The notes under the pieces were generated by a model, which was not told where the DNA came from, did not search any database, and saw nothing but the letters and a program-made list of their open reading frames with translations. A DNA stretch of 36,619 bases from a virus, in the IMG/VR virus record IMGVR_UViG_3300025889_000376, positions 1 to 36,619 of that record; one strand, 5' to 3'. Of this stretch, positions 18,316-30,280 are shown in pieces. The position numbers and the translations under genes are program-made. Positions within the stretch are counted from its first letter, which is position 1. Each line of letters opens with the position of its first letter.

Positions 18316-19092
18316 CTAGGCGATTGGTGGCTTGTAGCCCTTGAGGTACTGCCAGAGCTTGAGGGCCGCTTGGAAGGCATCCCATGCCTCCTCCAGTTGG
18401 GTCGCTGAGTAGTTCACGATCTCAACGCGGCCCTTCTCGGTGGTCGATATGTAGACGTTGGCCCCGGTGGTGTTGTGATGGATCCTGCCGAACTTGGCCA
18501 CGCAGTAAGCCGCGATCTGCATCGGCTCGGTCTCCCAAGGCGTGCAAGGTTGGCCAGGCTTGGTCTTACGGGACTTGAAATCCAAGATCCCGTTGAAGCC
18601 TATGCCATCGGTGAAAACCGCGTCTGTCGTACCAGCGTAGCCATCGCGCACGTTCACCAACCGCAGTTCATGCTCCCTGAATTTGATGCCTTCCTTTTCG
18701 ATTAGGCACGAAACGGGGTAAACGTAGGCGTCGTACCCATCCGGCACCGGATCGCCCTTAAAATGCGATTCTAAGGCAGCGTGGATGGCCGTGCCTAGGT
18801 CGGCAGCATCGCTCACCTGCTGGAAGGCGCCATCCGTGGCCCGGCGGGCGTAGCTGTCCACGCCTTCGTTGTCCTGCGGAGGGTTCCCGTGGCACCAGTT
18901 GCTGACCTGGGCGAGTTTCCAGTCCATCAACTGCGGCTTGTCCAGCACGCCAAGGACGGTGGTGACCGATGGGTAGAGCCCGAGCTTGCGGGCGTCTGCA
19001 ATGGTGGTAGGCCTAGTGCCGCCGCCCTTGGCCTTGGGAACCTCGAAGACGGCGGCACCTGTCCGGTCGTACCAATGTTGGGACTTACTCAT
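18316..19092 (-). CDS. PD-(D/E)XK family exonuclease (258 aa)
   Basis: The motifs of RecB/lambda-exonuclease-like nucleases appear in order: GTAIHAALE (residues 100-108), the metal-binding Asp of GYAGTTDAVF (Asp157), GILDFKSRK (Asp171, Lys173) and QIAAY (192-196). These form the catalytic core that degrades or trims DNA ends. With the SSB-like gene downstream and RusA-like remains further on, it forms a phage recombination module. A recombinase of the Bet/RecT type is not recognisable in the window, which is notable. The 5' end overlaps the HhH gene by 8 bases. Confidence 0.8.
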   Translation of the reverse strand: MSKSQHWYDRTGAAVFEVPKAKGGGTRPTTIADARKLGLYPSVTTVLGVLDKPQLMDWKLAQVSNWCHGNPPQDNEGVDSYARRATDGAFQQVSDAADLGTAIHAALESHFKGDPVPDGYDAYVYPVSCLIEKEGIKFREHELRLVNVRDGYAGTTDAVFTDGIGFNGILDFKSRKTKPGQPCTPWETEPMQIAAYCVAKFGRIHHNTTGANVYISTTEKGRVEIVNYSATQLEEAWDAFQAALKLWQYLKGYKPPIA

Positions 19093-21992: not shown

Positions 21993-22187
21993 TCAATAGG
22001 GCACTACGCTTAATGTAAGCAACCGAGCAATCGCCCCTTCCTGCATCAGAACATGGGGGATATGCCGCTCTTCCCCCGCCTCCCAGTACTGGAGTGTCCG
22101 GCGGCTGATGCCAAGGTGAGCAGCGCAAGCGGGTTGGGACAGATGCAGTTCCAGGCGCATCTCCTTCAAGATTTCAGCGAAAGTCAT
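21993..22187 (-). CDS. XRE-family helix-turn-helix regulator (64 aa)
   Basis: The core is MTFAEILKEMRLELHLSQPA then CAAHLGISRRTLQYWEAGEE, a classic Cro/C1-type HTH with recognition helix SRRTLQYWE. It is a single-domain protein of a size similar to restriction-modification controller proteins. Its start is coupled (ATGA) to the stop of the methyltransferase gene. It may control the methyltransferase or a phage promoter. It is not next to any integrase or lysogeny gene. Confidence 0.75.
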   Translation of the reverse strand: MTFAEILKEMRLELHLSQPACAAHLGISRRTLQYWEAGEERHIPHVLMQEGAIARLLTLSVVPY

Positions 22188-23374
22188 GGAAACATCTCCT
22201 GCATCAAGGTTGTGAAGGCGATTGCAGCGGTTGCGGGTACAACTCCATTGCCGAGGAGCCGCAGTTCATCGGTGCGATTGTCACCGGACACGCACAGCTC
22301 GGCATAGTCCATCCCACCGGCAGGCCCATCAATGTTTCCACCCAGCGCGGGTTCAGTTTGCCGCCTGCTTGGCTGTTCAAATCCGAATGCTGAATTCCGT
22401 TCTGACAAGTGCCTCCTGTCATGTTTCGCGGCGTGGCCCACGACCCTTGGCGGCTCCCATTCGTACTGAGATTGACCTGGGCGGCTTGGCCAGAAGCTAA
22501 TTCCAATGTCGCTATCCGACGCAGTATCCGACCGCCCTTGTCCGCCTTGGCTAACGATTCCCAATTCGTTCCTTGATCTAGTGTCTCCAATGCTGTCGGT
22601 GTCGGCCATTGCTTGATTGAGCCCGCACGATCTTTCGTTAGCTTCTCCCTGTTTATTTTGCCGACTATCGCTGGATGATTGCTCAGGCAGATTTGACCAA
22701 AATTCGGTCGATTTCCTATCTTCCCTCCGTCTGCCGTTGCTGGAGTCGGCCAATTCTGAGCCGTGATGACCGCTTGATCTAATGTGTCCATAGCTCGGCT
22801 TTTTCCATCCGAGCGAATCAACGATTCGGGACGATATGGTCCTTTCCAATCCCGCGTCGTTGCGGTGGGCCAAGACAAAAATTCTTTTGCGCTGGTGAGG
22901 CGCGCCAAGTTCAGACGCCGAGAATAATCCAAACGCGACCTTGTAACCCAAGCCTTCCAAGTCGCTGACGACTGTGGAGAGTCCCAGCGAGATGTGTCCC
23001 TCGACGTTCTCGAAAAAACAGAGGGCTGGCTGGAGAATGGAAATTCCGTCTGCGATTGCTGGCCACAGGTGCCTTGGATCGTCTGCTCCCTTCCGCAGTC
23101 CTGCTGCGCTGAAGGGCTGGCAAGGGTAGCCTCCAGACAGGATGTCCACCTTTCCGCGAAAGCTGGCCCAAGGGAAGGTTTTAAGATCCGTCCAGATAGG
23201 TGCCGCGTCCAAGAATCCCGCTTCCATTTTAGCGACCAGGTTCGCGCAGGCGAATGCTTCGATCTCGCTAAAAGCGACTGTTCGCAGGCCTGGGATTGCT
23301 CGTTTAAGTCCGAGATCAATGCCTCCGTACCCGGCACAAAGGCTGAGGTGTGTAATTGCTTGGGTAGTATCCAT
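22184..23374 (-). CDS. dcm: C5-cytosine DNA methyltransferase (396 aa)
   Basis: The conserved motifs are all present: motif I LSLCAGYGGIDLGL (residues 10-23), motif IV GGYPCQPFS with catalytic Cys85, motif VI FENVEGH (121-127), motif VIII APHQRKRIF (158-166) and the final LRLLGNGVVPA (about 371-381). The variable target-recognition part (about 195-360) is polar. It transfers methyl from S-adenosylmethionine to cytosine in a specific DNA site, in the cytosol, probably to protect phage DNA from host restriction; no restriction enzyme is adjacent. A second 391-codon frame overlaps almost all of it. An extended -10-like element (CTGCCATAA, minus strand) lies about 80 bases upstream. Confidence 0.93.
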   Translation of the reverse strand: MDTTQAITHLSLCAGYGGIDLGLKRAIPGLRTVAFSEIEAFACANLVAKMEAGFLDAAPIWTDLKTFPWASFRGKVDILSGGYPCQPFSAAGLRKGADDPRHLWPAIADGISILQPALCFFENVEGHISLGLSTVVSDLEGLGYKVAFGLFSASELGAPHQRKRIFVLAHRNDAGLERTISSRIVDSLGWKKPSYGHIRSSGHHGSELADSSNGRRREDRKSTEFWSNLPEQSSSDSRQNKQGEANERSCGLNQAMADTDSIGDTRSRNELGIVSQGGQGRSDTASDSDIGISFWPSRPGQSQYEWEPPRVVGHAAKHDRRHLSERNSAFGFEQPSRRQTEPALGGNIDGPAGGMDYAELCVSGDNRTDELRLLGNGVVPATAAIAFTTLMQEMFP

Positions 23375-23379
23375 GTCAT
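22204..23379 (-). CDS. 391-codon ORF embedded in the methyltransferase gene in another frame
   Basis: An ATG at 23379, five bases before the methyltransferase ATG, opens a second frame that runs 391 codons to 22204 with no stop. It reads MTWILPKQLHTSAFVPGTEA at the start, has repeated WPT-P motifs (SWPTATTRDWKG, NWPTPATADGG, QWPTPTALET), and ends with LNPRWVETLMGLPVGWT. I recall this layout and these motifs from phage proteins, both overlapping C5-methyltransferases and apparently on their own. If made, it would be a basic, Ser/Thr/Trp-rich protein of unknown function. The alternative is that methyltransferase codon constraints keep the frame open by accident. No translation signal separates the two starts. 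Confidence 0.5.
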   Translation of the reverse strand: MTWILPKQLHTSAFVPGTEALISDLNEQSQACEQSLLARSKHSPARTWSLKWKRDSWTRHLSGRILKPSLGPAFAERWTSCLEATLASPSAQQDCGREQTIQGTCGQQSQTEFPFSSQPSVFSRTSRDTSRWDSPQSSATWKAWVTRSRLDYSRRLNLARLTSAKEFLSWPTATTRDWKGPYRPESLIRSDGKSRAMDTLDQAVITAQNWPTPATADGGKIGNRPNFGQICLSNHPAIVGKINREKLTKDRAGSIKQWPTPTALETLDQGTNWESLAKADKGGRILRRIATLELASGQAAQVNLSTNGSRQGSWATPRNMTGGTCQNGIQHSDLNSQAGGKLNPRWVETLMGLPVGWTMPSCACPVTIAPMNCGSSAMELYPQPLQSPSQP

Positions 23380-23434: not shown

Positions 23435-23521
23435 AACCTATGCGCCTATTAGCGTAGGTTATGGCAGACGTTAACAAGGATTAGGTCTGTTAAAGCAGAC
23501 GCCACCAATCGTTAATAGGCG
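23435..23521. promoter_or_regulatory. Promoter/operator region upstream of the methyltransferase
   Basis: A dyad AACCTA-TG-CGC-CTATTA-GCG-TAGGTT spans 23435-23460. CGCCTATTAGCG (23443-23454) recurs inverted, with one mismatch, as CGTTAATAGGCG (23510-23521). TTATGGCAG at 23459-23467 is, on the minus strand, the CTGCCATAA extended -10-like element also seen upstream of genes at 25999 and 32852. The region contains an ATTAGC half-site. It is placed to drive and control the leftward methyltransferase. Confidence 0.4.
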
Positions 23522-24595: not shown

Positions 24596-25123
24596 TTAGG
24601 CGGTACGCATTGCCATAAGAACGGCGATGACGTTTTGACCTTCCAACGGCCCGAAAAGAGGCGTCACACGCATCACGCGGCCATCCTCCGTTGCGAACGT
24701 CAACTTTACGCCTTCGTCGCTTCCGAGGGCTTTCGCAAGGTCGAACAACATTGAAGGGTTGAACGCGACGTGTGCTTGCGGGAAGCTGCCACCTTCAGGA
24801 ATCACTTGTTTCCAGTTAGGGAAACGCGACGCCGTTCCCTCCAATGGCCGCCGGTAGCTTGTACCGTCGACGAGGGTGCAAGCGCCATTGCAAGTGATGC
24901 GTTTTTCGTCCCAAGCCTTTTCCATCTTGCGCGACGCCTTTACCGCTTCAACCGCAACCCAACCGTCGACATCGTGTTCGTCGCGTTCAACTTCAACGGC
25001 CACAAGGGCGCGACCGTTCGTTGCGACGAGATAGTTCCCGTCAAGGTAAGGATTGGCGAGGGCATCGCGCAGCTTTTCGTTAGAGCAAACACGCTCGACC
25101 TGTAGTTCTTTATGCAGTTTCAT
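24596..25123 (-). CDS. Sliding-clamp-like (DnaN/PCNA-fold) protein (175 aa)
   Basis: The N-terminal part reads ERVCSNEKLRDALANPYLDG, NYLVATNGRALVAVEVERDE. The C-terminal part has FPNWKQVIPEG, then VAFNPSMLFDLAKALGSDEG and ends NVIAVLMAMRTA. The LVATNGRxLVAV segment, 'xxNPxxLxDLAKALG' helix and near-terminal 'xxMxMR' echo the beta-clamp domains, where a C-terminal MPMRL is typical. The protein is about half the length of DnaN, so it would be a two-domain clamp or clamp-like inhibitor. No phage DNA polymerase is present in the window. The leader ATAACCCGATAAAATG lacks an SD. Confidence 0.6.
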   Translation of the reverse strand: MKLHKELQVERVCSNEKLRDALANPYLDGNYLVATNGRALVAVEVERDEHDVDGWVAVEAVKASRKMEKAWDEKRITCNGACTLVDGTSYRRPLEGTASRFPNWKQVIPEGGSFPQAHVAFNPSMLFDLAKALGSDEGVKLTFATEDGRVMRVTPLFGPLEGQNVIAVLMAMRTA

Positions 25124-28455: not shown

Positions 28456-28653
28456 ATGATCACCAAGCGATGCGTTGATGAGTGGCTGATTGAGCCGGAC
28501 GTGGAAGGAGCGCGGGAATACGCCCGTTTGTCCGTTACCGCCGAGCCGGATGGACTAAACATCGACGGGCAAGGCGTCATTCCGTGGACGCAACTGATGA
28601 CCGCCCGTCAGTCCTACACGTTAAACCTCAAAAAGCGCGATGCCGCTCGGTGA
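28456..28653 (+). CDS. Small hypothetical protein (65 aa)
   Basis: The product begins MITKRCVDEWLIEPDVEGAR and ends WTQLMTARQSYTLNLKKRDA. It is short and mixed alpha/beta. It overlaps the large-terminase start by 14 bases. It might be a small packaging accessory by position. There is no family match I can name. Confidence 0.55.
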   Translation: MITKRCVDEWLIEPDVEGAREYARLSVTAEPDGLNIDGQGVIPWTQLMTARQSYTLNLKKRDAAR

Positions 28654-30280
28654 CGTTTACTTTGCCGACGACTTCAAGCCGTCGTTTGGCATCCCGTGGG
28701 TGGACATCCCGAATCGGGACATCCTAGCGTCGTGGCCGCAGGAGCAACTGGTCGAGTACTTGGCCTTCCGCGAGGAACGTAACCGGCAAGCCCTCGACAA
28801 CCCCGTGGGCGCAGGCTGGACGCTGCCCATGTGGCATGAGGTGATGGACGCTTGGAACAAGTACCAGAACATCATCATCCTTGGTGGCAACCGGAGTGCC
28901 AAGAGCGTGTTCGCCAGCCGCCTGTGCGTGTGGGCCGCCGGCACGATACCCGCCGCCGAGGTCCGTGCTTACCACGTCAACGAGGACCGGAGCATTGAGG
29001 ATCAACAGCGGATGATCTACGACGCCTTACCCGTTGGCATCCGTTCCTTACCGACCAAAAAAGGACTGAACCATTCGGTCCAGTATTCACAGAAAAACGG
29101 CTTCACCGACAACATCTGCATCTTGCCCCCGCTACAAGGCGCCCGTCGTGGTGGCAGCATCAAGTTCAGTAATTACCGTAGTTATCAAGCGGACGCGCAG
29201 GTGGCCGAGGGCTACAAGGCCCACGTCATCTGGTGCGACGAGGAATGTCCTCAGAAGATGTTTGAGACGCTCCAGTACCGCACGTCCGACTACCACGGAC
29301 GCATCATCCTGACGTTCACCACGCTGACCGGATGGACCCCGCTGGTGCAGGACATCCTTGGCAAGACCCGCACGATCAAGAAGCGGTTTGCTCCGCTGGT
29401 CGGCAAGGATTTGCCCGTCATCCAAGAGTCCATCAGCCGCCCCAACACGGTCATCTTCTATTTCTGGACGGAAGACAACGCCTTCCTAGATACTTCCGAC
29501 TTCTCCAAGAAGCTCCTTGGTCGTCCCCGCGAGGAAGTCCTTGCCCGCGCTTATGGCATTCCCACGAAGTCGATTACTTCCGTCTTCCCCGGATTCAACA
29601 AGGAGGTCAACGTCATCCCCCATGAAACGATTCCTTTCGTCCGTAACGCAGACTATGCGGTCACTCGGTACATGGCTGTGGATCCGGCTGGCTCAAAAAA
29701 CTGGTTCATGCTCTGGGTCGCCATCGACGCCGCCGGAACCTGGTGGGTCTACCGAGAGTGGCCCGATTACGACGACTGGGCCTTGCCCGGATCAACCGCT
29801 GAAGGAAAGCCCGGCCCCGCGCAAAAGGGCAGCAAGAAAGGCATCAAGGACTACGTCGAGCTTATCGGTCAATGTGAGAACGGCGAAACGATTTACGAAA
29901 GGTACATTGACCCGCGCCTCGGTGCAGCGGAAAGGCAGAGCGCCGAAGGAGCAACCACCATCATCTCCGAGTTGGACGATGTGGGAATGACGTTCATCCC
30001 CGCGCCCGGCGTGGAGATCGAGAACGGGCTGCAACTGATCAACGGGCTGTTGTCCTACGACGAGAAGAAGCCCATCTCCGCGATGAACGGCCCCAAGCTG
30101 TACATTTCGGAGCGGTGCCAGAATCTTGTCTACTCCATGCAGGAGTACACGGCCCGTGGCGGAAAGGATGAGGCGACCAAGGATCCCGTGGACTGCCTAC
30201 GCTACCTGCTGGTTTCCAACTGCGAATTCATCGACGGCAGCAAGGTTGAGGTGGAAGATAATCGGACGTGGAGTTATTAA
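28640..30280 (+). CDS. terL: Terminase large subunit (546 aa)
   Basis: The ATPase domain has LGGNRSAKSVF (Walker A-like, residues 81-91), VIWCDEE (Walker B with catalytic Glu, 196-202) and IILTFTTLTGWTP (coupling motif, 222-234). The RNase H-like nuclease domain has AVDPAGSKNWF (Asp348), YIDPRLGA (Asp424) and DPVDCLRY (Asp518). The ATPase packages DNA through the portal and the nuclease cuts concatemers. Length and motif order match the families of short-tailed and siphovirus phages with headful-like packaging, although the exact cleavage mode cannot be read. Confidence 0.95.
   Translation: MPLGDVYFADDFKPSFGIPWVDIPNRDILASWPQEQLVEYLAFREERNRQALDNPVGAGWTLPMWHEVMDAWNKYQNIIILGGNRSAKSVFASRLCVWAAGTIPAAEVRAYHVNEDRSIEDQQRMIYDALPVGIRSLPTKKGLNHSVQYSQKNGFTDNICILPPLQGARRGGSIKFSNYRSYQADAQVAEGYKAHVIWCDEECPQKMFETLQYRTSDYHGRIILTFTTLTGWTPLVQDILGKTRTIKKRFAPLVGKDLPVIQESISRPNTVIFYFWTEDNAFLDTSDFSKKLLGRPREEVLARAYGIPTKSITSVFPGFNKEVNVIPHETIPFVRNADYAVTRYMAVDPAGSKNWFMLWVAIDAAGTWWVYREWPDYDDWALPGSTAEGKPGPAQKGSKKGIKDYVELIGQCENGETIYERYIDPRLGAAERQSAEGATTIISELDDVGMTFIPAPGVEIENGLQLINGLLSYDEKKPISAMNGPKLYISERCQNLVYSMQEYTARGGKDEATKDPVDCLRYLLVSNCEFIDGSKVEVEDNRTWSY

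Follow-up and report, generated by a model that had tools for sequence, protein, structure and literature searches.

Two overlapping reading frames of a phage probably encode a split C5-cytosine methyltransferase

The window analyzed here, a 36.6 kb virus record (36,619 nucleotides), contains a C5-cytosine methyltransferase (MTase) gene that shares its DNA with a second long open reading frame (ORF2), which lies in the +1 frame relative to the MTase. We consider it probable that this two-gene overlap encodes a split C5-cytosine methyltransferase, with translation, assembly and activity all inferred. In the model we propose, frame 0 would yield an alpha polypeptide carrying motifs I–VIII (SAM binding and catalysis) together with motif X, and the +1 frame, from its own ATG 5 nt upstream, would yield a beta polypeptide in which an N-terminal region is followed by a variable W-P-T region and then motif IX. 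The two polypeptides, made from overlapping starts, would assemble in trans into one active enzyme in the manner of M.EcoHK31I; it would probably serve to modify the phage's DNA and so shield it from restriction by the host, and the W-P-T region may, by inference, contribute to target recognition. The features of the locus are as follows.

22184..23374 (−): alpha, the C5-cytosine methyltransferase frame, 396 aa (PF00145, phrog_363)
22204..23379 (−): beta, the overlapping +1 ORF (ORF2), 391 aa, with its stop ending at 22204
23372..23379 (−): overlapping start codons ATGACATG, with the beta ATG at 23379 and the alpha ATG at 23374
22868..23347 (−): MTase motifs I–VIII in frame 0, alpha residues 10–169 (profile match and sequence)
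22876..23379 (−): ORF2 N-terminal region, residues 1–168, over motifs I–VIII, under purifying selection
22873..22977 (−): ORF2 residues 135–169, the sole confidently predicted helix (AF2)
22357..22875 (−): ORF2 variable region with W-P-T blocks
22872, 22752, 22608 and 22440 (−): W-P-T blocks in ORF2 at Trp170, 210, 258 and 314, respectively
22306..22356 (−): motif IX in the ORF2 frame, LNPRWVETLMGLPVGWT, residues 342–358
22217..22279 (−): motif X in frame 0, NRTDELRLLGNGVVPATAAIA, alpha residues 366–386
21993..22187 (−): HTH (XRE-type) ORF of 64 aa, outside the pair; its ATG overlaps the alpha stop (ATGA)

The ORF coordinates confirm the two long same-strand frames, of 396 and 391 codons, described in the initial annotation, along with its placement of a second ATG at 23379 next to the MTase ATG at 23374; there is no stop in the ORF2 frame as far upstream as a TTG at 23436. 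The blocks quoted there for the second protein, HTSAFVPGTEAL at the N-terminus and LNPRWVETLMGLPVGWT at the C-terminus, are both present in ORF2, and the three W-P-T blocks correspond to WPT at residues 170, 210 and 258, with an additional WAT at 314. Alpha matches Pfam PF00145 (6.1e-35, residues 8–214) and phrog_363 (2e-57) and contains the PCQP and ENVEG motifs of SAM binding and catalysis in C5-MTases. Motifs I–VIII and X are present in frame 0, but a canonical motif IX is not.

The initial annotation proposed dual coding but overlooked what ORF2 is: judged by the alignments described below, it is the carrier of the missing motif IX. By the same comparison, the ORF2 end LNPRWVETLMGLPVGWT is motif IX of a C5-methyltransferase, and ORF2 is not an unrelated protein. 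Homologues of the second protein encoded without an overlap were sought, and its C-terminal part was found in frame inside single-ORF MTases. In the unsplit genes L293, L301 and L317, the W-P-T blocks and the LNPRWVE segment both lie in the MTase frame between motifs VIII and X, and the segment alone does so in L356, Gordonia phage Baddon and Mycobacterium phage Estave1; the segment therefore occupies the place of motif IX. For comparison, motif IX of M.HhaI reads MHPRECARVMGYPDSY. When the in-frame protein L317 is aligned with the frame-0 products of five split loci (L258, L255, L249, L323 and L291), residues 1–175 (about half identical) and 300–356 match, but residues 270–300 yield only 2–3 matches; against the +1 products of the same loci, 14–18 of about 25 residues in that interval match. 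The AF2 model of unsplit L317 has a pTM of 0.76, with pLDDT 91–94 in the motif IX helix, and superimposes on M.HhaI with Z 24.0 and rmsd 3.3 for 244 residues, over model residues 1–356. The Pfam and TIGR00675 profiles stop short of motif IX even in unsplit MTases, and a HMMER alignment to M.HhaI ended after motif VIII. We therefore assigned motif IX from the in-frame order VIII–IX–X, the structure model and the L317 comparison, and not from a profile hit. Because motif IX resides in ORF2, the alpha and beta products are most likely complementary parts, or subunits, of one enzyme, their assembly being inferred. Three of the unsplit genes (L293, L301 and L317) retain a partial ORF2-like +1 frame of 164–199 codons, which persists over motifs V–VIII.

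Frames were tallied across the loci in which motifs VIII and IX could be located: 189 have motif IX in +1 and motif X in frame 0, 6 have the two motifs in frame 0, 2 (L294 and L295) have them in +1, and 6 look shifted by an indel. In 3 further loci no motif X was found and, with the patterns used, 45 had no recognisable motif IX and 54 no recognisable motif VIII. Motif X is also found in the ORF2 frame in L294, L295 and L262. In L050, L059, L064, L065, L067 and L240, motifs IX and X lie one frame further on and frame 0 ends early; this shift resembles an indel that moves both readings and could reflect either assembly errors or a genuinely different layout of the genes.

The +1 frame is open over its length in 80 of 80 IMG/VR loci collected with the MTase protein as query, so that the stops expected in homologues if this were a shadow frame did not appear; the rare stops in these loci (1–3 per gene) are at the C-terminal end of ORF2. 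Among 102 distinct genes, the ORF2 span contains 0 stops compared with 529 expected when MTase codons are shuffled synonymously, and the +2 frame of the same genes contains 1757 against a null of 1755. The span was ended at the ORF2 stop, making the zero partly a matter of construction, and the MTase-ascertained count is the less biased of the two. The second frame is +1 in all 102, with an offset of exactly 5 nt in 95, and the +1 overlap is present in 307 of 308 loci. Synonymous shuffling of the window gene gives a mean of 5.7 stops in +1, with none of 200 shuffles free of stops. The ORF2 ATG lies 1–4 codons upstream of a conserved Trp in every locus with a readable start (99/99), and the MTase start in those loci varies between ATG and GTG. 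Unsplit MTases with in-frame motif IX carry 6–19 stops in their +1 frame.

Selection was examined in both frames. For 75 non-redundant genes, pairwise identity in the ORF2 frame over the catalytic region is 54%, compared with 33% for a synonymous-shuffle null, and identity at fourfold sites is 0.64, compared with 0.32. This null disregards shared ancestry, and the comparison of fourfold sites with control genes gave only a moderate excess of about 0.04–0.16; we therefore turned to frame-aware ratios on 47 disjoint pairs, which are simple counting estimates. In the catalytic region, ORF2 has a dNN/dNS of 0.53 (0.45–0.60) and a dSN/dSS of 0.41 (0.35–0.49), compared with 1.66 and 0.89 for the +2 control frame. 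Past motif VIII, dNN/dNS falls to 0.17 for ORF2 and is 2.56 for the +2 control. MTase-silent changes that would create a stop in ORF2 occur at 0.023 per site, compared with 0.242 for other MTase-silent changes; the corresponding control values are 0.198 and 0.236. The synonymous constraint at issue in the dual-coding proposal is thus borne out, in that synonymous change is reduced and nonsynonymous change in ORF2 is suppressed relative to the +2 control. These substitution patterns show protein-level selection on both frames. Its balance varies along the gene: in the E. coli and Firmicute types, the ORF2 ratio between motifs VIII and IX is 0.23 and that of the MTase frame 0.82 (0.57–1.16) for 41 disjoint pairs, such that the MTase frame there is, by these estimates, near neutral and hardly more than a passenger. 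Between motifs VIII and IX, then, selection acts mainly on the ORF2 frame. In the upstream region of these types, where ORF2 has often not yet begun, its ratio is weaker (0.81).

A map of codon phase locates these effects. ORF2 residues 1–12 are ORF2-dominated, motifs I, IV–VI and VIII are MTase-dominated, and ORF2 residues 25–48 and 133–156 reflect both frames; further on, the first W-P-T block and the LNPRWVETLMGLPVGW segment are ORF2-dominated and motif X is MTase-dominated. Over the LNPRWVE segment (motif IX), entropy at ORF2 codon positions 1, 2 and 3 is 0.20, 0.05 and 1.03, whereas over motif X, a few codons further, it is 0.13, 1.39 and 0.36, the free position being the MTase wobble position. 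At the motif IX site it is position 1 of the frame-0 codon that is free, and the conserved reading is +1. The entropies thus show selection that changes frame between motif IX (+1) and motif X (frame 0). Constraint at the level of DNA or RNA was ruled out as an explanation, as conservation tracks codon phase and changes frame at the motif IX/X junction. On the comparative evidence, the +1 frame is a real gene and not a shadow, its translation being inferred, and the dual-coding reading of the initial annotation is upheld by the open frame, the selection and the homologues without overlap, again short of translation.

What a subunit supplying only motif IX would not need is the selected N-terminal half of ORF2, and this counts against the split-enzyme model. 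One possibility, which we hold only tentatively and at somewhat less than even odds, is that the N-terminal 168 residues form a separate functional domain overprinted on the catalytic core, so that the whole MTase gene is dual-coded. The same residues are the support for supposing that ORF2, though a genuine second protein, acts separately from the MTase and merely descends from a piece of one. Such a protein could be a regulator, a counter-measure against restriction or acting at DNA ends, or a factor that interacts with the clamp. The N-terminal residues are under selection and have no match to a known fold or family beyond phrog_1008, which is labelled DNA methyltransferase. We regard this explanation as unlikely, however, because motif IX is nearly invariant in ORF2 and absent from frame 0, an MTase without motif IX would be incomplete, and a few loci (L294, L295 and L262) have motif X in the ORF2 frame as well.

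The order of motifs, I–VIII in frame 0 followed by IX in +1, is also compatible with a single programmed +1 ribosomal frameshift after motif VIII, which would place I–VIII, the W-P-T region and motif IX on a single polypeptide, and in the three loci with motif X also in +1 one such shift would produce a whole enzyme. In the 189 loci where motif X is back in frame 0, however, two shifts would be required. Moreover, selection in the ORF2 frame already acts on ORF2 residues 1–12, which are upstream of and at the MTase start, with the ATG kept in 99/99 loci, and ORF2 is selected over motifs I–VIII, which a late frameshift would leave unused; we consider this explanation very improbable. That ORF2 is a shadow frame held open by conserved MTase codons can be dismissed almost entirely: although conserved motifs do force similar +1 peptides and ORF2 tracks the MTase codon phase over motifs I, IV–VI and VIII, the stops, the synonymous conservation, the selection ratios with their +2 control, the start-codon retention, the phase switch at motif IX and the +1 stops of related MTases with in-frame motif IX all contradict it.

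The split-enzyme model has a precedent in M.EcoHK31I. The small gene of this enzyme sits within the large gene in another frame, and its beta subunit is about 176 aa. M.EcoHK31I, which recognises YGGCCR (Lee, Kam and Shaw 1995, summarised in PMC3404938), is a heterodimeric C5-methyltransferase whose larger subunit carries motifs I–VIII and X and whose smaller subunit carries only motif IX (PMC3404938). The window pair shares the division into two polypeptides, the larger set of motifs (I–VIII and X) on one and motif IX on the other, but differs in that beta is 391 aa, covers the whole alpha gene and begins upstream of it, has an N-terminal half under selection and also bears the W-P-T region. 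The new elements are thus the reach of beta across the whole alpha gene, its start 5 nt upstream and the selection on its N-terminal half. Assignment of the W-P-T region as a target recognition domain (TRD) remains unproven, and by analogy would be uncertain, since the predicted TRD of M.EcoHK31I is placed in the larger subunit (PMC3404938); the region is predicted by AF2 to be disordered even in unsplit L317. Fragments of C5-methyltransferases can complement in trans (PMC3404938). M.AquI is likewise split, a C5-methyltransferase whose second polypeptide holds motif IX, but its small subunit carries both motifs IX and X (PMC3404938), whereas motif X of the window, as in the 189 loci, stays in frame 0 with I–VIII. 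Actinophage DNA methylases can contain the ShiLan domain, an HNH endonuclease encoded out of frame by a mobile element inserted locally (PMC11855218). ORF2 resembles it in being an out-of-frame ORF within a phage methylase gene, but extends along the gene and codes for a segment of the MTase. No Pfam family matches ORF2 at E up to 1, and a homing nuclease in the second frame was rejected for want of Pfam support.

A search of PDB sequences with the ORF2 alignment gave no match up to E 10. Modeled alone with AF2, window ORF2 is poorly predicted (pLDDT 57, pTM 0.26) and the model does not match a PDB fold; such a model might fit partner-dependent folding, but also a disordered protein. Window ORF2 matches PHROG 1008 (6.2e-17, residues 79–358), as do the E. 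coli type (7e-62) and the Paenibacillus type (6e-72), so that this 'DNA methyltransferase' profile matches ORF2 of all three types. Unlike ORF2, the profile has a motif X tail, which matches the C-terminus of the window MTase; some members therefore probably have ORF2, IX and X fused in a single frame. Firmicute-type ORF2 (L164, L262 and L311) begins with QLTLF, similar to a motif that binds the sliding clamp; this resemblance was set aside because the same letters are also the +1 reading of MTase motif IV (IDIVSGG).

Nested pairs occur in Escherichia phages K1G, ESSI2_ev129 and vB_Eco_K-01, and tblastn shows that many Kagunavirus phages and E. coli phages of the BASEL collection carry one; others are found in Paenibacillus phage Jacopo, Lacticaseibacillus phage R9.1, Phage C75C1 and Synechococcus phage Ssp-JY39. 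The second ORF is already in GenBank for K1G ('Mte8-like') and some Paenibacillus phages. In K1G, ORF30 ('putative Mte8-like protein', ADA82276) is nested in ORF31 ('C-specific methylase', ADA82277), and in Jacopo gp57 is nested in gp56. Both nested genes share the +1 nesting, W-P-T blocks and C-terminal motif IX of the window, but their starts are 88 or about 200 nt into the MTase gene, their products are 230–234 aa long, and their annotations do not state the nature of the second protein. No paper explaining the second ORF was found in the literature searched. Annotation pipelines usually dismiss long overlaps between genes on the same strand; the one described here is about 1.17 kb, with both frames clearly selected, and the nested pair is present in hundreds of phage records as well as prophages, where most annotations give only a single 'DNA cytosine methyltransferase'. 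If the split-enzyme model is correct, many methyltransferases of phages would show no activity when only the annotated ORF is cloned, and the in-frame, split and fused versions would form a natural series for the origin of a split enzyme by change of frame. If the overprinted N-terminal domain is also real, the nested pair would be among the most widespread long same-strand overlapping phage genes.

Annotation of individual copies varies. In Synechococcus phage Ssp-JY39 (L309, 569–1684), the annotated 'hypothetical protein' is ORF2 and the stop-free MTase frame is unannotated. The copy in the E. coli Ec1117 prophage (L396, 789–1958) appears in RefSeq as two incomplete 'DNA cytosine methyltransferase' pseudogenes, and in other prophages of E. 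coli the annotation gives one gene and omits the second ORF. A Klebsiella aerogenes plasmid match was considered as a possible relative of M.EaeI and set aside: its surroundings are phage-like, and no restriction enzyme is annotated there. Close relatives of the window type are found on Verrucomicrobia contigs, such as those of Geminisphaera and Pedosphaera, which suggests the host. Elsewhere in the window, an ORF at 24596–25123 (−) matches two PHROGs, one for a RusA-like resolvase (1.5e-8) and one for a DNA polymerase processivity factor (6.6e-7). An exonuclease at 18316–19092 (−; phrog_298, 7e-20) and a terminase large subunit at 28640–30280 (+; phrog_2, 6e-19) are consistent with a tailed phage.
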